Assembly: GCA_009692825.1 (NCBI GenBank)
Contig: SHYL01000008.1
Span: forward strand, 1-35,914
Direction: 5' to 3'
Length of the DNA stretch: 35,914 bases
From: Dehalococcoidia bacterium
GTDB taxonomy: Bacteria; Chloroflexota; Dehalococcoidia; SHYB01; SHYL01
Shown: piece after piece, positions 475-24,956 of the stretch
How the letters are laid out: each line of letters opens with the position of its first letter
How positions within the stretch are numbered: the first letter of the stretch is position 1
Program-made: the position numbers and the translations under genes
Notes under the pieces: generated by a model
The model's database searches: none
The model's input: the letters and a program-made list of their open reading frames with translations, nothing else
Told to the model about the DNA's origin: nothing

Positions 475-1539
475 CTAATCTACCGCGATATTCAGTTGCG
501 CGGCTGTTTTCAGCCAGTCCGCCCATTCTGAATCCTCCAACGGTATGCCGTCTTTTCTGCGCTTCTCTTCTATCTTGAAGCCGCGTTCGCCGGGCATAAG
601 GATTTCTTCGAAACCTTTGGCCTTCTTGCTGTTTTTCATCATGCCTATGCGCGCGTCCACCTTGTTCTTGAAGTCCTGAAGGTTTGTGAATGAGCTGACG
701 TTGAGCGCCATAATCATGGAGTCATTAGTGATTTTTCCTGTGGCCGCAGGGCTTGGGTCCATGGGCCCGCCGCTGAGGAGACCGCCCAGGATCTCGCTGA
801 CTATCTGCATCGCGGCACCTTTAGGACCGTTCGTCATGTTCGCCATCGAGCCTGACAGTCCCGGCGTAGGTGTCATGGGTGAACCGGGATTGTATTTGGT
901 TGCGTCTGCTGTCGTTACGCCGTCATCGTCCAGTATCCAGCCTTCAGGGATGGGAAGCTTTTTCACGAGGTATGGCTGGAGAGCACGGGACGCGATCGCG
1001 GTGGTCGCCATGTCAACGATTATCGGCTTCTCTTTGCCTGCTGGGATCGCAACCGATACAGGGTTCGTGCCCATGATTCGCGCTGCACCGCCGTATGCAG
1101 GCGACTGCGGGATGGCGGAGCGAGTGTACATCTGGCCGACCATGTCCTGCATGGCGATAAGCTCTGTGTAATAGCCAAGCGCTGTTACGCCCCCGAGGTT
1201 CTTTATCGCCGCCGCTCCCATGCCGTGCTTGCGGGCCTTCTCAATGATCTTATCGACCGCATGCTTTGCTATGACAGGTCCGATACCGAATTTCGCGTCC
1301 AGTGTAATAGTCGTGTCGCTTTCGGCAATAACGTCTGCCTTGATATGGTTACGGTTAGGGTCACGTATCGATGCATTCACAACGCCGGGTATGCCCCTGA
1401 TGCCGTGGCTATCGTGGCCGCGCAGGCTTGGCATGAGCAGGCTATCGAATACTATTGCCGCGTCCGCATCTGTGATGCCTGCGGCTGTCATCATTTTCAT
1501 GCTGAGGTCATGTGCGTGCTTAACGCTGATCAGATGCAT
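475..1539 (-). CDS. Ldh family (malate/L-lactate dehydrogenase-like, PF02615) oxidoreductase
   Basis: 354 aa; RGHDSHGIRGIP, GIGPVIAKHAVDKIIEKARKHGMGAAAIKN and IMGTNPVSVAIPAG motifs typical of the family. Confidence 0.9.
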   Translation of the reverse strand: MHLISVKHAHDLSMKMMTAAGITDADAAIVFDSLLMPSLRGHDSHGIRGIPGVVNASIRDPNRNHIKADVIAESDTTITLDAKFGIGPVIAKHAVDKIIEKARKHGMGAAAIKNLGGVTALGYYTELIAMQDMVGQMYTRSAIPQSPAYGGAARIMGTNPVSVAIPAGKEKPIIVDMATTAIASRALQPYLVKKLPIPEGWILDDDGVTTADATKYNPGSPMTPTPGLSGSMANMTNGPKGAAMQIVSEILGGLLSGGPMDPSPAATGKITNDSMIMALNVSSFTNLQDFKNKVDARIGMMKNSKKAKGFEEILMPGERGFKIEEKRRKDGIPLEDSEWADWLKTAAQLNIAVD

Positions 1540-1632
1540 AAGTTACTCCTTAGCTGGTCTGTACTGATTCGTTGGATTTTATCGGCACTACGATACCACA
1601 GTTAAGGTTCGCAGCGTTACACTTAAGAAGAT

Positions 1633-3951
1633 ATGCAGCTTCAAGACAAACCATCCTCATTTGACCCGAAGCAATTTATAGAAGAAATCAAGCGTGAGCC
1701 GTGGTATGCCGGGCAGATCGAGTATGTGGAGCATATTGCGCCGCGGCAGGCTAAACATGCAGCCTTGAAGTCTGCGATAGACCCATCGCTGGTTAGCGCA
1801 TTGCAGTCGGCCGGGCTGATGCCTATGTTTTCGCATCAGGCTGAGGCCATTGACCGCACGATTGCAGGCGAGAATGTGATAGTCTCCACACCCGCGGCAA
1901 GCGGGAAAAGCCTTTGCTATCAGGTTCCTGCCCTGAATGCTGTTCAGCAATCCGCTTCCGCCAGGGCGATATTGCTATATCCCACGAAGGCGCTGGCCCA
2001 GGACCAGCTACATTCACTCCAATCCTTGTCGTCGCGCATTTCGCGCAAACCCATGATTGCGACATACGATGGCGATACACCGCAGGAGGAGCGTTCGAAG
2101 ACGAGGCGCTCAGCAAACATCCTGCTAACGAACCCTGACATGCTTCACATGGGCATATTACCGAACCACAGGTCATGGTCGAAGCTGTTGCAGGGACTTA
2201 AGTATGTAGTTCTGGATGAGGCGCATGTCTATCGAGGCGTTTTCGGCAGCCACGTCGCAAACGTTTTGCGCAGGTTCAGGCGTTTGTGCGAAGGCTACGG
2301 CTCGCACCCGCAGTTCATCCTATGCTCAGCAACGCTGGCAAACCCCACAGAGCATGCTCAAAACCTTGTTGGGCTGCCGTTCACGTCGATAACTGAAGAT
2401 GGGTCACCCGCGGGAGCTAAAGAATTTGCGCTCTGGAACCCACCAGTCATCGATAAGGCGCGCGGAAGCAGGCGCAGCTCCAACTACGAATCGACCAACT
2501 TGTTCGCTTCATTAGTGAGTAAAGGCGTGCGCACCATCACATTCGCGCGCACCCGCAAGCTGACCGAGCTTATATACATTTACACACGTGAGAGGCTTGG
2601 TGAATCAGGAGCCGCGGTTGCCAGCAGGATAAGGCCGTACAGGGCGGGCTACCGTATCGAGGAGCGCAGGCAGATTGAAAAAGAGCTGTTCGAAGGCCGT
2701 TTGCTGGGCGTGTCGGCGACAAGCGCGCTGGAGCTAGGCATAGACATAGGCGGTCTGGATGCGACGATACTCACAGGCTATCCGGGCAGCATCGCGAGCG
2801 CTTGGCAGCAGGCCGGGCGCAGCGGACGCAGGGGCGGCGGTTCGCTTTCTATCATGGTAGCGATGAGCAACCCGCTTGACCAGTACTTCATGCGGAACCC
2901 TAAGGCTTTTTTCGGCAAGCCTCAGGAGAACGCTATAACGTCCCATACCAACCCTCACATACTGCGTTCGCACCTTTTGTGCGCGGCGTACGAGAGACCG
3001 TTGACGCAGTCGGACGCTTCGTATTTCGGCGAGCAAACAATTCCGTTGGCAAACGAGCTGACGAAGGAATGTCTAATGAGGCCGTCGTCCAGCGGACGTC
3101 AGTGGTACCTGGCGGCTGGAATCGATTATCCAGCGCAGGATATAAACATACGTTCCACCTCTGCTGGCGTTTACACGCTTATCGAGGAAGGAACCGGCAG
3201 ACTTTTAGAGACCGTCACATCTGAGCAGGCGTTCTCGCAGATACACCCCGGAGCTGTCTATCTGCACCAGGGCAACGCTTTCCTTGTGACCAGCCTGGAT
3301 ATTCCGGCGAAAAGTGCGTACGCCCGTCAGACCGAGGATCCGTTTTATACACAGTCGTCTGATGTCACTGATATACGTATCTTGCGCGTGCTGCAGGAGA
3401 AACAGGTCGGCCCCGCGAAACTGTATCTGGGCGAGGTGGATGTTTCACGTACTTTCGTCAGCTATAAAAAGAAGCGCCAGCTGACGGAAGAGATCGTCGA
3501 CGAAGAGCCGCTGGATCTGCCCACGCAATCGTTTCCGACGGTGGCATTTTGGTGGGACATACCGCAGAATATGCAGCGCGAAATACGGAAAGCAGGGCTG
3601 GACTTCGCCGGCACCATTCACGCGGCTGAACATGCTTCAATCGGCATGCTGCCCTTATTTGCACTCTGTGAGCGCAATGACATAGGTGGTGTATCGACTC
3701 CACTGCATCCGGACACAGGCCTGCCGCAGGTGTTCATATACGATGGACATGCGGGCGGTGTTGGTATCGCGGAGAAGGGCTACGAACTGGCGACGGAGCT
3801 GTGGGACGCGACTCTTAAGGTCATCAACGAATGTGTATGTGAAAGCGGCTGTCCTAGCTGCATACAATCGCCGAAGTGCGGCAACAACAACGAGCCGTTG
3901 GACAAGAAAGGCGCTGCTGCATTGCTGAAGAGCCTCTTGGGCCGAAGCTGA
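1633..3951 (+). CDS. DEAD/DEAH-box helicase with C-terminal DUF1998 Zn-binding domain (MrfA/YprA-like)
   Basis: 772 aa; ASGKSLCYQVP, VVLDEAHVYRG, CSATLANP, QAGRSGRRG; C-terminal CVCESGCPSCIQSPKCGNNNEPLDK cysteine cluster. Confidence 0.93.
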   Translation: MQLQDKPSSFDPKQFIEEIKREPWYAGQIEYVEHIAPRQAKHAALKSAIDPSLVSALQSAGLMPMFSHQAEAIDRTIAGENVIVSTPAASGKSLCYQVPALNAVQQSASARAILLYPTKALAQDQLHSLQSLSSRISRKPMIATYDGDTPQEERSKTRRSANILLTNPDMLHMGILPNHRSWSKLLQGLKYVVLDEAHVYRGVFGSHVANVLRRFRRLCEGYGSHPQFILCSATLANPTEHAQNLVGLPFTSITEDGSPAGAKEFALWNPPVIDKARGSRRSSNYESTNLFASLVSKGVRTITFARTRKLTELIYIYTRERLGESGAAVASRIRPYRAGYRIEERRQIEKELFEGRLLGVSATSALELGIDIGGLDATILTGYPGSIASAWQQAGRSGRRGGGSLSIMVAMSNPLDQYFMRNPKAFFGKPQENAITSHTNPHILRSHLLCAAYERPLTQSDASYFGEQTIPLANELTKECLMRPSSSGRQWYLAAGIDYPAQDINIRSTSAGVYTLIEEGTGRLLETVTSEQAFSQIHPGAVYLHQGNAFLVTSLDIPAKSAYARQTEDPFYTQSSDVTDIRILRVLQEKQVGPAKLYLGEVDVSRTFVSYKKKRQLTEEIVDEEPLDLPTQSFPTVAFWWDIPQNMQREIRKAGLDFAGTIHAAEHASIGMLPLFALCERNDIGGVSTPLHPDTGLPQVFIYDGHAGGVGIAEKGYELATELWDATLKVINECVCESGCPSCIQSPKCGNNNEPLDKKGAAALLKSLLGRS

Positions 3952-16349: not shown

Positions 16350-17633
16350 ATGAATAGAGTCTTGGCGTTGATCCTCGCAGGTGGCATGGGCAACCGTTTG
16401 AGCATTCTTGCCGAAGAAAGAGCCAAGCCCGCCGTTATGTTTGCAGGCAAATATCGGATCATCGACTTCACTTTGTCCAATTGCGTTAACTCTGGCATAG
16501 ACCGTGTTGGAGTTCTTACCCAGTATCGCCCGATGTCACTCAATCAACACATTGGCCTTGGCAAGCCGTGGGACCTTGACCGGGAGCGCGGAGGCGTTTC
16601 GATTTTGCAGCCGTACGTCGGGAGAAAAGCATCAGACTGGTATCGGGGCACTGCGGATGCGGTGTATCAAAACTTGAATTTTGTAGAAGAGACATCATGC
16701 GACCAAGTGCTGATTCTGGCGGGCGATCACGTCTACAAGATGAACTACAACGATATCGTGAGCTTTCATCAGATGAAGAAGGCTGACGTGACAATTGGGA
16801 TAATAAATGTCCCCATCGAGGAGGCATCTCGTTTTGGAATATTGTCTCTCGATAATCAAGATACGGTAGTGAAATGGGAAGAGAAACCCGCCAGGCCTAC
16901 GGGTACTCTGGCCTCCATGGGGATATACGTATTTCAGAAACAGGCACTGATTGACATTCTTACTGAGGACGCAGCCAAGCGCTCAAGCCATGACTTCGGT
17001 AATGACATCATACCGGCCATGGTTGAGAGGCACAAAGTTTACGGGTTTCGTTTCACTGACTACTGGCGTGATATCGGTACGGTTTCGTCCTACTGGCAGG
17101 CAAGCATGGAGCTCCTGGCAGAGCCGCAGATGATAGATATGCGCGACCAGAATTTTCTCATACGTACGCGTTCAAAGGAAATGCCTCCGGCCAAGATAAG
17201 CAATAAGGGTAATGTGCACGAGAGTCTTATAAGCCATGGGTGCGTCATAAAGGGCGAGGTTAGACATTCGATTCTATCGCCGGGCGTTACTGTAGAAGAG
17301 GGCGCAAAAGTTGAAGACTCAGTTATATTCGACGATACATATATATCTTCAGGCGTTGTTATAAATAAATCCATAGTGGACAAAGAAGTCGTAGTCGGTG
17401 CTGGTGCAATCATTGGCTTTGGGAATGACATGACGCCAAACGCGGATGAGCCTGACAACCTCGCTTCAGGCGTAACGCTTGTTGGGAAGCGGGCGAAGAT
17501 TCCGGCATTTGCGAAGATCGGTCGCAACTGTAGGATTGACCCTTCGGTAAGGGAACAGGACTTCAAAGGTCAGCTGACTATTCTCAGCGGCAAAACCGTA
17601 GCCAGGGTAGAAGGCACTCGCGCATATGCCTAA
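16350..17633 (+). CDS. glgC: Glucose-1-phosphate adenylyltransferase
   Basis: 427 aa; LALILAGGMGNRLSILAEERAKPAVMFAGKYRIIDFTLSNCVNSGI, YRGTADAVYQN, LAGDHVYKMNY; left-handed beta-helix C-terminus. Confidence 0.96.
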   Translation: MNRVLALILAGGMGNRLSILAEERAKPAVMFAGKYRIIDFTLSNCVNSGIDRVGVLTQYRPMSLNQHIGLGKPWDLDRERGGVSILQPYVGRKASDWYRGTADAVYQNLNFVEETSCDQVLILAGDHVYKMNYNDIVSFHQMKKADVTIGIINVPIEEASRFGILSLDNQDTVVKWEEKPARPTGTLASMGIYVFQKQALIDILTEDAAKRSSHDFGNDIIPAMVERHKVYGFRFTDYWRDIGTVSSYWQASMELLAEPQMIDMRDQNFLIRTRSKEMPPAKISNKGNVHESLISHGCVIKGEVRHSILSPGVTVEEGAKVEDSVIFDDTYISSGVVINKSIVDKEVVVGAGAIIGFGNDMTPNADEPDNLASGVTLVGKRAKIPAFAKIGRNCRIDPSVREQDFKGQLTILSGKTVARVEGTRAYA

Positions 17634-19998
17634 AAAATCGACTACCAGGAGGAAATCTCCTGTTCTGGACGGCAACACTGAATTCACCTTCTTGACTGAA
17701 GATGATTGCTTTCGTCTTCTAAGATCTCTGAGGTGGAAGGCTGGAGTAAGCTGTCCGCGCTGCCATGCTGACCATATTGGCAGGTCGGTCGCTCATCCGC
17801 TTTCGACACACCCGCCCTCTCAAAGGTACCTTTGTTTAAAGTGTCACCATCACTTTAACGACATCGCGGGGACAATCTTTGAGAAGAGCAAGACACCTCT
17901 GTGGAAGTGGTTTGCCACCATACACCTGGTCCTGAACACGAAGGGTGTTGCCGCAAGGCGTATTGCGGAGCTGCTGGAAAGCAGTGAGAAGACGACGCTT
18001 CAGATGGTGCATCGAATCAAGAAAGATGCCGTAGCGGCGCAGATAGCGAAGCATCTTGAATCCTTGCGTAAGCACGGCGCAATCAAAATAAAAGTTACGA
18101 AGCATGACGTTAACATAACTGTCATACCTCAGAGGTTGAAGCTGCCTCCCGATGTGGGCCTGCCTGATAAACGACGGCCGGTTGATGGAGTGTCAGAGCA
18201 CCAAATTCGACAGGATCGAACAGCACTTATTAAAGCTCCTGAATATAATCAAATAACGGCATTTGCTATGGGTTCAAGAAATAACGAAGCTTTTGTGTAC
18301 AGACCTCATTCACCTAACTTTAAAGGAACGTTTTCCTTTGTACTGCACTCCCATTTGCCATATGTGAGACTCGCCGGCAGATGGCCTCACGGCGAAGAGT
18401 GGATACACGAGGCGATGTCTGAGACATACCTGCCGCTCCTGAATGTGATCCGTGTTTTACGTTCGAAGCAAATCTCGTCAAAGCTCACAATAAACCTGAC
18501 GCCAATTTTGATGGAGCAGCTTGCTGATCCGCTGATTAAAGATAACTTTGTCGCTTATGTAAAAGACAAGATTGCGCGTTCAGAAATTGATGCTGAAAGA
18601 TTCAAAGGGATTGATGTCCATAAGGAAAATCTTGCTCTGGCATATGCCCAGAGGTACAAGGACACGCTGTATAGCTTTGAAACCTTGTATGGCAGGGATA
18701 TCATCGGCGCTTTCAACCGCTTACAGGACGAAGGTTTGGTAGAAATAGCAGCAAGCGCTGCAACCCATGGCTACCTTCCTCTTCTTGCCACTGATACTTC
18801 TATAAGAGCGCAGGTAAAGGTGGGGGTAGATACATATAAGAAATACTTTGGCAGAGCGCCATCATCATTTTGGCTGCCTGAGTGCGCTTACAGGCCTGAA
18901 AAAGACGGCAGGCCGCCAATTGAGAAGTTCCTCGAAGATGAAGGAATAAAGGCATTCTTCACTGAGAGTAGTGCGTTGACAGGCACGACTGTCCATCCAA
19001 AAGGTGAATCGCGAATCGGTCCGTACGGCTATGTGATTGGCTCAAGGGGTGTTCGAAAAGAGAGGCCCCCCACAAATGCCGACGAATGGGCTACTTATTC
19101 CGCTTATAACGTCTATGATTCTGGCGTTGCAGTAGTCGCCAGGAATGCGCGAACAAGTATGCAGGTGTGGTCTGCGGCTCACGGGTACCCAGGGGACTAC
19201 TGGTACCGGGAATTTCATAAGAGAGATGACGCATCGGGGCTTCAGTACTGGCGTATAAGTGGTCATTCGACTGACCTTGCATCTAAGGCGCTATATGACC
19301 CCGGCCGCGCGTCCCAAAGAGTAAGTGAGCACGCAAATCACTTTGCTTGGCTTGTGGAAGAGCTTACGAAGAATTACTTCGGCGCTACCGGTGATAAGGG
19401 AATGATGACCGCCGCTTACGATACAGAATTATTTGGGCACTGGTGGTTTGAAGGGCTTGACTGGCTTGCGCATGTGATAGAGAAACTTTCTAATAGTGCC
19501 TCTGTGCGTCTTGTCACCGTTACCGAAGCTCTGCAGATTAAGCCGCCTGAAACCAGCATAGATTTGCGGGAAGGTTCATGGGGATCGCGCGGGGATCATT
19601 CTACTTGGAACGGGTTTGATGCCAACTGGATGTGGCCTATTATCCATTCTTGTGAAAAGAAGATGGAAAGTCTGGCTGAAGCTTACCCGGTAGCAGTAGG
19701 TCCAACAGTCCAGGTTTTGAATCAGGCGGCGCGAGAATTACTCCTACTGGAATCCAGCGACTGGCCTTTCCTGGTAACCACGGGCCAGGCACGGGATTAC
19801 GCTATAGACCGGTTCAAAATACATCTCAGGCGTTTTCAGGTACTGGCCTCGGCATTGGAGTCAGGACCTATCACCAGCGTTACCATTGCCCAATGCAAAG
19901 AATGGCGCGAATTAGATAATCCATTTCCACAATTGGACTACCATCTGTTCACTCCGAAGGCGGAGCTCGTTGTGGCTAAAAAAGGTAATACTGCCTGA
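17626..19998 (+). CDS. Fusion protein: N-terminal IS1595-type transposase zinc ribbon + HTH-like module, C-terminal GH57 1,4-alpha-glucan branching enzyme
   Basis: 790-codon uninterrupted frame. N-term: FLTEDDCFRLLRSLRWKAGVSCPRCHADHIGRS...RYLCLKCHHHFNDIAGTIFEKSKTPLWKWF. C-term from about residue 230: FSFVLHSHLPYVRLAGRWPHGEEW, FWLPECAYRP, AAYDTELFGHWWFEG, LLLLESSDWPFLVTTGQA. Start overlaps the glgC stop. Confidence 0.93.
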   Translation: MPKKSTTRRKSPVLDGNTEFTFLTEDDCFRLLRSLRWKAGVSCPRCHADHIGRSVAHPLSTHPPSQRYLCLKCHHHFNDIAGTIFEKSKTPLWKWFATIHLVLNTKGVAARRIAELLESSEKTTLQMVHRIKKDAVAAQIAKHLESLRKHGAIKIKVTKHDVNITVIPQRLKLPPDVGLPDKRRPVDGVSEHQIRQDRTALIKAPEYNQITAFAMGSRNNEAFVYRPHSPNFKGTFSFVLHSHLPYVRLAGRWPHGEEWIHEAMSETYLPLLNVIRVLRSKQISSKLTINLTPILMEQLADPLIKDNFVAYVKDKIARSEIDAERFKGIDVHKENLALAYAQRYKDTLYSFETLYGRDIIGAFNRLQDEGLVEIAASAATHGYLPLLATDTSIRAQVKVGVDTYKKYFGRAPSSFWLPECAYRPEKDGRPPIEKFLEDEGIKAFFTESSALTGTTVHPKGESRIGPYGYVIGSRGVRKERPPTNADEWATYSAYNVYDSGVAVVARNARTSMQVWSAAHGYPGDYWYREFHKRDDASGLQYWRISGHSTDLASKALYDPGRASQRVSEHANHFAWLVEELTKNYFGATGDKGMMTAAYDTELFGHWWFEGLDWLAHVIEKLSNSASVRLVTVTEALQIKPPETSIDLREGSWGSRGDHSTWNGFDANWMWPIIHSCEKKMESLAEAYPVAVGPTVQVLNQAARELLLLESSDWPFLVTTGQARDYAIDRFKIHLRRFQVLASALESGPITSVTIAQCKEWRELDNPFPQLDYHLFTPKAELVVAKKGNTA

Positions 19999-21473
19999 TG
20001 AACATACTGTTTGTTGCTGCTGAAGTAAGTCCGCTTTCCAAGGTTGGTGGACTTGGAGATGTAGCTGGTTCGCTCACTGTTGCTCTCTCTGAACTCGGTC
20101 ATGATGTTCGCATCGTCACGCCTAATTACAGTGCTATCGATGTGAAGAAATTTCCCAGCAAGTCGAAGGGCAGCGTAAAATTTACCGCCCCTGGAGGGGC
20201 TTCTTTCAGCGCTGATGTAAGAGAGACGCGCCTGAAGAATCGCATACCTGTATATCTCATTGACATGCCGGAGTTTTTTAACCGCAGCAAGGTTTACGGA
20301 GAAGCGGATGATCTCGAACGCTTCTGGGCGTTCTCACAGGCAGCCGTCCTGGTGCCGGAACTTCTCGGATGGCAGCCTGACGTACTCCACGCCCATGACT
20401 GGCATGCGGCCATTTCCGTTTCGTTAATGAAGGCCTATCGCGATAGGTACCCGATATGGAACAAAGCTGGAACCGTTCTGACGATTCATAACCTGCAATA
20501 CCAGGGCCATCTGAACGATAAGTTTATGAGCTCCGGTTTTATGGACCTCGGAGCGCTCAGCGTAGACCGTCTCGCGAACCTGAATATATATCCAAGCATG
20601 ATGGGCCTCGGTCTTGTAGCCACCGATGTTATTAATACGGTATCTGAAGGATACTCAAGGGAGATCCTGACACCTGAATTCGGCTACGGAATGGAGCCGC
20701 TGTTGCACCAGAGGCAGGAAGACCTGGTTGGTGTCCTTAACGGCATAGATATTCGCGAGTTTGATCCGTCAAAAGATGCATATTTGCCGTTTAAGTTTGA
20801 TTTAAATACTATTAATTACCGCAGTGGAAACAAGGCGGAGCTCCAGCGCAAAGTGGGACTTGAAGTCAGGGCGGACGTTCCAGTTTTTGGTGCTGTCACC
20901 AGGCTTGCTGACCAAAAAGGTATAGACATCCTTGCTGACGCAATTCCGAATATTCTTAAAGCCACAGAAGCTCAATTCGTAATACTCGGAAACGGAAACC
21001 CTGACCTAGAGGCCCGTTTAACGACTCTAACAAACGCCAATAAGGGAAGAATGTCCGCTATTATCGGTTTTGATGTTGCTCTTGGTCAGCTCATATATGC
21101 CGGCAGTGATGTTTTCGTCATGCCGTCCAGGTTCGAGCCGTGCGGCCTCGGCCAGATGATTGCACTACGCTACGGGTCCGTACCTCTGGTAAGACAGACT
21201 GGCGGACTGGCGGATACAATTCAGGACTGTGGGCATGACCTTTCGAACGGAAACGGATTTGTTTTCAAAAATCCAAACTCTCAAGAGATTGAAGATACGA
21301 TGATAAGAGCTGTCCGCGCGTACGGCAGTAGAAATTTCTGGGGCAAGCTTCAGCAAAGAGGTATGGCTCAGGACCTCTCCTGGGACACGTCAGCTCAGAA
21401 GTACATTTCCATTTATAAGCAGGCACAAGGGAAGCGCAGTTCAATCGTAAGCATATCTGGAGGGCGCTCATGA
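19998..21473 (+). CDS. glgA: Glycogen/starch synthase (GT5)
   Basis: 491 aa; NILFVAAEVSPLSKVGGLGDVAGSLTVALSELGHDVRIVTPNY, VLHAHDWHAA, MPSRFEPCGLGQMIALRYGSVPLVRQTGGLADT. Confidence 0.96.
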   Translation: MNILFVAAEVSPLSKVGGLGDVAGSLTVALSELGHDVRIVTPNYSAIDVKKFPSKSKGSVKFTAPGGASFSADVRETRLKNRIPVYLIDMPEFFNRSKVYGEADDLERFWAFSQAAVLVPELLGWQPDVLHAHDWHAAISVSLMKAYRDRYPIWNKAGTVLTIHNLQYQGHLNDKFMSSGFMDLGALSVDRLANLNIYPSMMGLGLVATDVINTVSEGYSREILTPEFGYGMEPLLHQRQEDLVGVLNGIDIREFDPSKDAYLPFKFDLNTINYRSGNKAELQRKVGLEVRADVPVFGAVTRLADQKGIDILADAIPNILKATEAQFVILGNGNPDLEARLTTLTNANKGRMSAIIGFDVALGQLIYAGSDVFVMPSRFEPCGLGQMIALRYGSVPLVRQTGGLADTIQDCGHDLSNGNGFVFKNPNSQEIEDTMIRAVRAYGSRNFWGKLQQRGMAQDLSWDTSAQKYISIYKQAQGKRSSIVSISGGRS

Positions 21474-22768
21474 TTTACTGGGCGCCCCTGCTCCATATGT
21501 ACCAGCCCCCAACGCAAATTCACATGATATTGGATAAGGTCTGTCGAGAGTCTTACAGGCCGCTGATAGAAGTATTCAAGTCGCATCCGCAAGCGAAAGC
21601 CACGGTTAACATAAGTGGCTGTCTTACGGAAATGCTTCAAGAGCATGGATTTCAAGACGTTATTGACGGACTACGGGACCTTTCGGAAAGAGGTCAGCTT
21701 GAGTTTGTTGGCTCGGCCAAATATCACGCTATCCTGCCATTGATCCCACAGGAAGAAGCGGCAAGACAGATCGCACGCAATAAAGTTACGAACTCCAAGT
21801 TTTTTGGCAGCTCATACAACCCCAAAGGGTTCTTTCCTCCAGAGATGGCCTATAGTTCGAAAGTTGCCCAACCGATCATAGATAGTCGACATAAGTGGAT
21901 ACTGATTTCAGGTGTCGCATGCCCTACTCACTGGCCCGTGGATAGAGTGGATTACATAAAGCGCGGTGACGATGAACTTGGCGTCTTCTTCCGGGACGAC
22001 TTACTTAGCAACAATATCAGCTTTGATCGGATCAGTGCTACTGAATTTATCGACAAGTTAAAAAGGGTGCAAAGCTATTCAGGAAAGAAAGATGTGTATG
22101 TGATAACAGCAATGGATGCCGAAACCTTCGGCCATCACATTTTGGACTGGGAGAAGCTGTTTCTGGCGGATGTTTACAACCGTATTGATGGAGCCCTCGC
22201 TAAAACAAGCGATCCACTGGCATCTCGTACTAAGGAAATTATCGAATTCGGGGAAAAGCTGACCGAACCTGAGTTAAGAGTAGTTAACATCTCTGAACTT
22301 TTGACCCTATTCCCAAAGGGTTACCAAATCGAGCCCAAGCCGTCTTCCTGGAGTACAAGCGCCGCGGATATTGAGTTCGAGAACCCATTCCCGCTTTGGA
22401 ATGACCCAGGCAACCCTTTACATAAACTGTTGTGGCAGCATCTAAACCTGACGATAGAGATGGTAAATGAATCGCAGCTTGCGACCAAGCCAAAATCAAA
22501 AACGTCCGCAGAAGTTGGGCGAGTTATGCTGGATCCTGCATTGCATAGCTGCCAGTTCTGGTGGGCCAGCCAGCGTCCGATGTGGGACGTTAACATGGTC
22601 TATAGAGGCCTGCTCGAGCAACGTGAGGCGATGATGAACGCATACAAAGCTATCGTTACTGACGATTTTGACGAGCGAACCAAGCATGAATATCAACTCA
22701 AATTCCTGGCATCTCAAAAGATTCAGGACATGATAGTAGACTTGCTTGTTAACGATAACAGAGCCTGA
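21470..22768 (+). CDS. GH57-family glycoside hydrolase (short form, 432 aa)
   Basis: MIYWAPLLHMYQPPTQIH, KGFFPPEMAYSSKVA (nucleophile-like Glu), VYVITAMDAETFGHHI (acid-like Asp). ATGA-coupled to glgA. Confidence 0.85.
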   Translation: MIYWAPLLHMYQPPTQIHMILDKVCRESYRPLIEVFKSHPQAKATVNISGCLTEMLQEHGFQDVIDGLRDLSERGQLEFVGSAKYHAILPLIPQEEAARQIARNKVTNSKFFGSSYNPKGFFPPEMAYSSKVAQPIIDSRHKWILISGVACPTHWPVDRVDYIKRGDDELGVFFRDDLLSNNISFDRISATEFIDKLKRVQSYSGKKDVYVITAMDAETFGHHILDWEKLFLADVYNRIDGALAKTSDPLASRTKEIIEFGEKLTEPELRVVNISELLTLFPKGYQIEPKPSSWSTSAADIEFENPFPLWNDPGNPLHKLLWQHLNLTIEMVNESQLATKPKSKTSAEVGRVMLDPALHSCQFWWASQRPMWDVNMVYRGLLEQREAMMNAYKAIVTDDFDERTKHEYQLKFLASQKIQDMIVDLLVNDNRA

Positions 22769-22829: not shown

Positions 22830-24956
22830 ATGAACCAGATAAATTTCAGCCTAGTTCTTCACAATCATCAGCCCGTTGGCAATTTCCCATGGGTTTTTGA
22901 AGATGCTTACGCGAAGTGTTATTTGCCGATGGTTCACGCGCTAGAAAAGCATCCTTTGATCAAGGCATCCCTTCACTACAGCGGCCCGCTCATAGATTGG
23001 CTAACCGACAATAGGCCCGACTTTATTCCTATGGTTGCCAGTCTTGTTAAGAGAGGACAGGTTGAGATTATCGGCAGCGGCTATTACGAGCCTATCCTTA
23101 CGTCTATACCTGATGTAGATAAGATCGGCCAGATAAACAAGATGCGTGATTACATCAAAGATACCTTCGGTACGGATGCAAAGGGGATGTGGCTTACCGA
23201 ACGTGTATGGGAGCCTCACCTGCCAAAGTGGCTTGCATTAGCTGGGGTCGAATGGACAGTCGCAGACGATTCTCATTTCAAGATGGTGGGTCTCTCAGAC
23301 TCCGACCTATCCGGGTACTACACCACTGAAGAAGAGGGGTACACCGTAAAGCTGTTTTCAAGCAGTAAGCAGGTAAGGTATCTCATTCCTTTTAAGAGTG
23401 TTGAAGAGACGATCGAATATTTTAAGAGCCAGGCGAATGAAAGCGGCTCGGCATTGCTAGTGCTTGGTGACGACGGTGAAAAACTTGGCGTTTGGCCCGG
23501 CACTTACGAACACTGTTGGACGAACGGTTGGGTTGAGAGATTTTTCAAAGCTCTTGAAGAAAATCAGGGAAGCATAAAAGTTATAACGCTCGGAGAATAT
23601 TTAGACAAGTATCCTTCGCTTGGTCGTGTTTACATTCCAACTGCTTCCTACGAAGAGATGATGGAGTGGGCGCTTCCTACGCAGAGCTCTTTTGATTTGA
23701 ATAACATTAGACATGAGCTGGAGGGTAGGAATGACCAGCGAATGCTCTCTTTCATCAAGGGTGGCTTCTGGCGTTCGTTCATGACGAAATATCCGGAGGC
23801 TAACCAGATGCACAAAAAGATGCTCCGCGTCAGCCAGAAAGTCCACGATATGGCCGACGATAACAATAAAAAGTTAGCTCTGAACGACCTGTGGAAAGGC
23901 CAGTCCAATTGCCCCTACTGGCACGGTGTTTTCGGCGGTCTTTATCTTACCCACGTCCGTTCCGCAAATTACAGGAATCTCATAGCCGCAGAAAAGAAAG
24001 TAGATGCAGAAAAACATATTGGCGAGTGGATGCAAACAAGCCTTTTCGATATAGATCGTGATGGAAAAGAAGAGGTTATCCTGGAGAGCGATAAATTCAA
24101 TCTCTACATCGATATTGCTAGCGGCGGTGGTTTAACAGAGTGGGATATCAAGGACAAGAATCATAATCTCCAGAGCGTAGTGGCCAGAAGACCTGAGGTA
24201 TACCACTTACAGCTTAAGCAGTCCTCAGAAAATCAGGACCAGCATCAGATACAGGCTGGCGAAATCGCGACGATACACAACGCGCCTAAATTCAAGGGCG
24301 ATTTGATCAGCGAAATAACTTATGACCGCTATCCACGCCTGAGCATGCTTGAGCATTTTATAAGCAACGACGTTAAGTTTGAGGAGTTCGCGTCCGGCGA
24401 CTATCGCGACGACAGCGATTTTGCGTCGGGAATATTTAACCACCGCTTTTCAAGAGAGGCGGATATAACAAAGGTAGCTCTAGAACGCACAGGGACTGTA
24501 AAAATGGCGTCAACCAGCGGAATACTCGAACTTGGGAAGACTGTTATCGCCCGCCCCGGTAAGGAATCGTTTACGGTAATTTATGGCATCAAAAATGTCG
24601 GCGACACTAAGATAAGCACCAGGTTCGTATCTGAATGGAACCTTAATCTTCTCGGGGGCGGGCATAATCCGGTTGCATACTATGAGGCGGATGGCCAAAG
24701 ACTCTCCCCTTCTTTCTTAGATGAGTCCGGGCATTTTCAAGGCGAAGAAGTTACGCTTGTTAATGAATATCTGGACATTCACGCAAAGTTGACGTCTTCG
24801 GACGAATGCGAAATATGGCGCTTTCCGGTTGAATCGGCATCCAATTCAGAGCGTGGAATCGAGAAGGTTTACCAAGGAAGCTGCATTGCTCTAGTTATGC
24901 CGCTTGAGATTGCCCCCGGCGAACAATTTGGCTTAACTCTTACCTGGACTTTTTAG
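22830..24956 (+). CDS. GH57 alpha-amylase/4-alpha-glucanotransferase with C-terminal DUF1925/DUF1926-type domains
   Basis: 708 aa; INFSLVLHNHQPVGNFPWVFEDAYAKCYLPM, KGMWLTERVWEPHLP, LLVLGDDGEKLGVWPGTYEHCW; beta-rich C-terminus. Confidence 0.9.
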   Translation: MNQINFSLVLHNHQPVGNFPWVFEDAYAKCYLPMVHALEKHPLIKASLHYSGPLIDWLTDNRPDFIPMVASLVKRGQVEIIGSGYYEPILTSIPDVDKIGQINKMRDYIKDTFGTDAKGMWLTERVWEPHLPKWLALAGVEWTVADDSHFKMVGLSDSDLSGYYTTEEEGYTVKLFSSSKQVRYLIPFKSVEETIEYFKSQANESGSALLVLGDDGEKLGVWPGTYEHCWTNGWVERFFKALEENQGSIKVITLGEYLDKYPSLGRVYIPTASYEEMMEWALPTQSSFDLNNIRHELEGRNDQRMLSFIKGGFWRSFMTKYPEANQMHKKMLRVSQKVHDMADDNNKKLALNDLWKGQSNCPYWHGVFGGLYLTHVRSANYRNLIAAEKKVDAEKHIGEWMQTSLFDIDRDGKEEVILESDKFNLYIDIASGGGLTEWDIKDKNHNLQSVVARRPEVYHLQLKQSSENQDQHQIQAGEIATIHNAPKFKGDLISEITYDRYPRLSMLEHFISNDVKFEEFASGDYRDDSDFASGIFNHRFSREADITKVALERTGTVKMASTSGILELGKTVIARPGKESFTVIYGIKNVGDTKISTRFVSEWNLNLLGGGHNPVAYYEADGQRLSPSFLDESGHFQGEEVTLVNEYLDIHAKLTSSDECEIWRFPVESASNSERGIEKVYQGSCIALVMPLEIAPGEQFGLTLTWTF

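Follow-up and report, generated by a model that had tools for sequence, protein, structure and literature searches.

The closest described systems to the locus reported here are of three kinds. GH57 branching enzymes such as those of T. kodakarensis (PDB 3n8t) and T. thermophilus (1ufa, 3p0b) combine a catalytic domain, with its Glu and Asp residues, and a C-terminal BE_C domain, and the known structures start directly at the GH57 domain. IS1595 transposases consist of a zinc ribbon (Zn_ribbon_IS1595, PF12760), a helix-turn-helix (HTH) and a DDE nuclease domain (DDE_Tnp_IS1595, PF12762). PutA and BirA are trigger enzymes, in which an enzyme and a DNA-binding domain share one chain. To our knowledge, fusions of a transposase DNA-binding domain to a host protein are seldom seen in bacteria. 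In eukaryotes such fusions are well described (for example PMC10027918, PMC12062965).

The window, meaning the whole stretch of 35,914 nucleotides that was analysed, comes from an uncultured Chloroflexota bacterium, whose metagenome-assembled genome (MAG) has 1.17 Mb in 62 contigs and a completeness of 75.7%. Its glg operon contains a gene (17626..19998, forward strand, as are all window features given below) encoding a protein of 790 amino acids, in which an IS1595-type zinc ribbon-HTH module and a linker precede a GH57 branching enzyme. Compared to the known GH57 structures, the protein adds a 214-residue N-terminal module plus linker. It has a four-cysteine zinc ribbon, a GTIF motif and an HTH in common with IS1595 transposases (aa 21-135), but differs from them in that it is fused to an enzyme and has no DDE domain, no terminal repeats and changes at conserved positions. 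Its likeness to PutA and BirA would lie in the proposed way of working, not in homology or class membership.

Organisation of the fusion gene and the glg operon

The fusion frame starts with ATG and runs for 790 codons with no internal stop, while upstream of this ATG the frame stays open for 5 codons only. The start overlaps the last codons of glgC (glucose-1-phosphate adenylyltransferase; 16350..17633; NF003670/TIGR02091 above the NCBIfam cut-off) by 8 nt (ATGCCTAA), and a putative weak Shine-Dalgarno-like GAAGG lies inside glgC (17610..17614), 11 nt before the fusion ATG. The preliminary description of this locus had claimed a single frame without a stop or frameshift between module and enzyme, beginning within the end of glgC; both points were correct, and the translational coupling to glgC that it proposed is plausible given the overlap and the operon position. 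The GlgC C-terminus is normal, its alignment with relatives reaching the last residues. On the other side, the ATG of glgA (glycogen synthase; 19998..21473; TIGR02095 above cut-off) overlaps the end of the fusion gene by 1 nt. A second GH57 protein (21470..22768; Pfam 1e-34) and a GH57 protein of the alpha-amylase/4-alpha-glucanotransferase type (22830..24956; Pfam AmyA-gluTrfs_C 4.8e-57, GH57 3.6e-48) follow. The first of these two matched branching-enzyme models weakly, and its neighbours are conserved in several relatives.

This order (glgC, branching enzyme, glgA, GH57, GH57) is also the order in relatives. Where glgC directly precedes the enzyme gene in them (about two dozen distinct cases), the two are separated by a gap of 5-178 nt, a space that is occupied by the module in the window genome. 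The best homologues of the enzyme half are from Chloroflexota, and a second branching enzyme was not found in the recovered 76% of the genome. Upstream of glgC, no palindrome or other operator candidate was recognised.

Within the fusion protein, Pfam placed Zn_ribbon_IS1595 at aa 23-76 (17692..17853; 3.5e-9, 36.9 bits against a cut-off of 25.4), with CPRC from residue 43 and CLKC from residue 70 providing Cys43, Cys46, Cys70 and Cys73. An HTH of the IS1595 transposase type follows at aa 87-139 (17884..18042), as indicated by NCBIfam, a transposase profile and an AlphaFold model; the first 55 positions of the NCBIfam model transpos_IS1595 matched this region (1.8e-7, 31 bits, below the whole-protein cut-off of 75). 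Its predicted helices span residues 92-104, 110-116 and 121-133, with mean pLDDT of about 86-95. A linker of 94 aa (aa 140-233; 18043..18324) was modelled mostly at low confidence, with a predicted helix (135-149) at its start. It contains an in-frame ATG (Met215, 18268..18270), a putative start of a GH57-only form, before which no Shine-Dalgarno-like sequence could be recognised by reading the sequence. A PadR domain (PF03551) is absent from the fusion protein according to Pfam.

The catalytic and C-terminal domains of the enzyme lie at about aa 233-775 (18325..19950). Pfam matched GH57 (4.6e-39) and BE_C (PF09210; 2.7e-29), and PDB 3n8t matched aa 233-768 at 4.3e-134; the nearest solved structures to this half are 3n8t, 5wu7, 3p0b and 1ufa. 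The catalytic residues Glu419 (in WLPEC; 18880..18882) and Asp599 (in YDTELFGHWW; 19420..19422) align with those of 3n8t and are unchanged across an alignment of 31 homologues. With a GH57 domain, both catalytic residues and a C-terminal BE_C present, the protein is a GH57 branching enzyme on all sequence features tested, and the complete enzyme of the preliminary description is thereby borne out.

Coding signal in the module and the linker

Codon usage of aa 1-140 and of the linker (aa 141-214) is of the coding type, like that of other genes, which agrees with the earlier view of an in-frame, coding module that is not noise. None of 1000 dinucleotide-preserving shuffles reached the coding score of either segment, and the open frame was retained in 3 (module) and 17 (linker) of 1000 shuffles. 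GC content is 0.46-0.51 in the main segments of the fusion gene and composition is continuous over the junctions, except that aa 215-233 are encoded by a short A+T-rich segment (GC 0.35).

Transposase origin of the N-terminal module

A one-sequence search with a profile built from 25 near-full-length IS1595 transposases gave a match to aa 21-135 (3.7e-30), a value at which the resemblance is not due to chance, and the match ends where the DDE domain would start. The zinc ribbon and HTH named in the preliminary description were therefore recovered as the expected PF12760 and as an IS1595-type HTH. Its wording that the module closely resembles IS1595 transposases stands as a family match and was too strong for the degree of likeness, since identity is about 30-40% and at most 41%. 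In the alignment with transposases, C43, C46 and C70 are invariant and C73 nearly so, and the module has all four. Of 18 positions at which at least 85% of the transposases agree, it deviates at 6, compared to at most four in any single transposase; the A-W pair of the third HTH helix is among the changes, suggesting that the module has a binding surface unlike theirs. AlphaFold modelled the zinc ribbon and each of the three helices of the HTH mostly at a pLDDT of 76-95, taken in blocks of ten residues, and the linker for the most part below 60; in the full-length model the module is at low confidence because no homologue in that alignment spans it. The kept cysteines and predicted fold, together with the changed positions, would suit a module that was kept for binding with altered specificity, without proving it.

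The DDE domain, described earlier as missing, was indeed absent. Pfam gave no PF12762 match in the frame, and no remnant was present in the six frames of 17901-18700, in a search for which transposases as positive control scored >200 bits. Terminal inverted repeats occurred at chance level only in 17400-18500, and neither DDE_Tnp_IS1595 nor a second copy of the module was found elsewhere in the recovered genome. The module is thus not a fresh insertion, and the fusion protein is not a transposase but only derived from part of one. A 55 aa frame in the same genome (L173:1490-1630) encodes a zinc-ribbon peptide just above the PF12760 cut-off that is not a transposase.

In a tree with transposases the module has a long branch (1.47), which we rejected as proof of domestication, since long branches were also seen for GlgC, GlgA and the enzyme half, so that the module's branch also reflects an unsampled lineage. 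These three proteins (16350-21473) have unusually long branches relative to other Chloroflexota and point to a deeply separate, poorly sampled lineage. In a Foldseek search no structure matched the module significantly (best E 0.17), the only likenesses being weak ones to winged-helix and zinc domains, and a PDB profile search gave only short generic zinc-finger matches. The module had no match in phages or viral contigs, and its matches in plasmids were mainly IS1595 transposases.

Distribution of the architecture and PadR fusions on the same enzyme

The enzyme of the window was searched against 80 genome-contig loci and 393 genomes of its class (38 with a match), and a PadR-type enzyme (see below) was used as query against 400 genomes of the phylum and 346 genomes of a second class. 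None of about 150 Chloroflexota branching-enzyme loci, some of which are the same genome from two collections, carries a zinc ribbon on the enzyme, so that the architecture anticipated in relatives was not recovered there. For this exact module, such an outcome had been named in the preliminary description as counting against it, a result softened by a PadR domain at the equivalent position in seven genera. The enzyme was absent from four other genomes of the source order. A search with the module (100 relatives, 301 phylum genomes) returned full-size transposase frames, the rest being contig-end or broken pieces. The IS1595-module fusion is known from a single genome, and the relatives compared are all outside its GTDB family. 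Long N-terminal extensions were also seen in L065/L133, L097/L136 and L189/L192; these three were rejected, as they look like G+C-rich upstream read-through; Pfam found no domains in those of L065 and L097.

Reading upstream of the enzyme loci revealed that, in seven genera belonging to a single Chloroflexota family, the GH57 branching enzyme has a PadR transcription-regulator domain at its N-terminus (L051:2052-4349, L047:2774-5071, L056:5497-7815, L063:497-2803, L076:2850-5216, and L142 and L176, both around 1500-3780). The PadR matches were above the Pfam cut-off in all five proteins scanned (2.5e-6 to 2.6e-15), and over the whole fusion the others share 58-61% identity with the L051 protein. 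They form one clade (support 90/84) beside members of the same family without PadR. The PadR-GH57 enzymes resemble the fusion protein of the window in carrying a DNA-binding domain of similar size at the same N-terminal position on the same enzyme, but the domain is unrelated, the enzymes form a separate single clade, and no glgC or glgA adjoins their genes. As the two domains are unrelated, a DNA-binding domain was fused to the branching enzyme at least twice in the phylum; as glgC and glgA are not adjacent, the PadR fusions are no evidence for regulation of the glg operon. A GntR/LacI-type regulator adjoins two of the PadR-fusion genes. Upstream of the L051 gene, whose PadR start is at 2052, lies a perfect 8+8 inverted repeat (CATTACAAGGTTGTAATG; CATTACAA-gg-TTGTAATG; L051:2016-2033), located between a TATAAT-like box and a Shine-Dalgarno sequence and present in one of six upstream regions checked. 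It may be a PadR operator, but it could have arisen by chance.

In the open literature, including word searches of the text of PMC6037648 and PMC11046441, no description of a GH57 branching enzyme carrying a DNA-binding domain was found, nor anything relevant on PadR in combination with GH57 or on the domestication of IS1595; the PadR-GH57 fusion is apparently undescribed there.

Discussion

We consider it very probable that the in-frame gene fusion is real. As best single explanation, which we put forward tentatively, the exapted module would make the enzyme an autoregulator of the glg operon, by analogy with trigger enzymes. On this view, the zinc ribbon and HTH that form the DNA-binding part of an IS1595-type transposase would have been acquired in the space separating glgC from the native branching-enzyme gene; the captured element would then have lost its DDE nuclease and its ends, and what remained would now be the N-terminal domain of the one branching enzyme that was found in this genome. 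The GH57 half would make glycogen branches while the N-terminal half would bind DNA, most simply the enzyme's own glg promoter. If the free protein bound DNA and the glucan-engaged protein did not, or the reverse, expression of the operon would follow the amounts of free and glucan-occupied enzyme. Domestication, DNA binding, its target and the coupling to glucan are what we infer here, as the preliminary description did for domestication, binding and a possible autoregulation; DNA binding is assigned to the module by family, and we lean slightly towards the view that it still binds nucleic acid. The coding signal in module and linker, the four retained cysteines, the zinc ribbon and HTH folded in the model, the lack of insertion-sequence remnants, the tight operon overlaps, the sole branching enzyme found and the independent PadR parallel speak for autoregulation. 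The single MAG of 76% completeness, the lack of a recognised operator upstream of glgC, the lack of a significant Foldseek match and the occurrence of PadR fusions outside glg clusters speak against it.

The main rival is that the module is the passive tail of a captured insertion sequence: an IS1595-like element would have inserted behind glgC, ahead of the enzyme gene, and lost its right part by deletion, leaving the start of the transposase fused in frame, tolerated and without a function for the host. N-terminal extensions of enzymes are frequently harmless, the architecture is a singleton, and nearly all homologues of the module are full-size IS1595 transposase frames, the others being cut by contig ends or broken, all of which fits such a tail. 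We nevertheless regard it as somewhat unlikely, because element ends, a DDE remnant and a sibling copy in the recovered genome are all absent, the zinc ligands and HTH core are retained despite an identity of only about 40% to the nearest known relative, and the linker too carries coding signal. The module could instead have an architectural use, in oligomerisation, in contact with GlgA or GlgC or as a tether to nucleic acid or the nucleoid. Zinc ribbons are versatile, the linker is long and predicted to be mostly unstructured, and the PadR fusions outside glg clusters indicate that regulation of a neighbouring operon is no general rule; however, the IS1595-type and the PadR module alike belong to DNA-binding families, which favours DNA as the target and leaves this use improbable.

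Translation of the enzyme chiefly from Met215 (18268), with the long form as a minor product, would agree with the position of this residue near the expected native start, since homologues begin around aa 230-234, and with the leader-like, A+T-rich aa 215-233. It seems quite improbable given that the ATG is not preceded by a Shine-Dalgarno-like sequence, that the upstream start is positioned for coupling to glgC, and that the module is coding. Finally, a MAG that is in 62 contigs and 76% complete, and the only source of the fusion, might have joined unrelated stretches or lost a stop codon. Such an artefact is highly improbable: the gene order on both sides of the fusion matches that of relatives and the junction overlaps are of a kind usual in operons. 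The normal GlgC end and the continuous composition and codon usage, together with this gene order, make a false assembly join unlikely.

Taken across the phylum, Chloroflexota may have repeatedly made the GH57 branching enzyme DNA-binding, by way of PadR in one case and of a transposase module in the other. The products would be trigger enzymes that sense polysaccharide, with glycogen branching directly setting gene expression; we regard this broader reading as doubtful. If the fusion protein does bind DNA, an enzyme of the storage polymer would itself be sensor and regulator of glycogen synthesis. Since the PadR form is conserved across seven genera, the idea can be tested on an architecture that recurs and not just on one metagenome bin.
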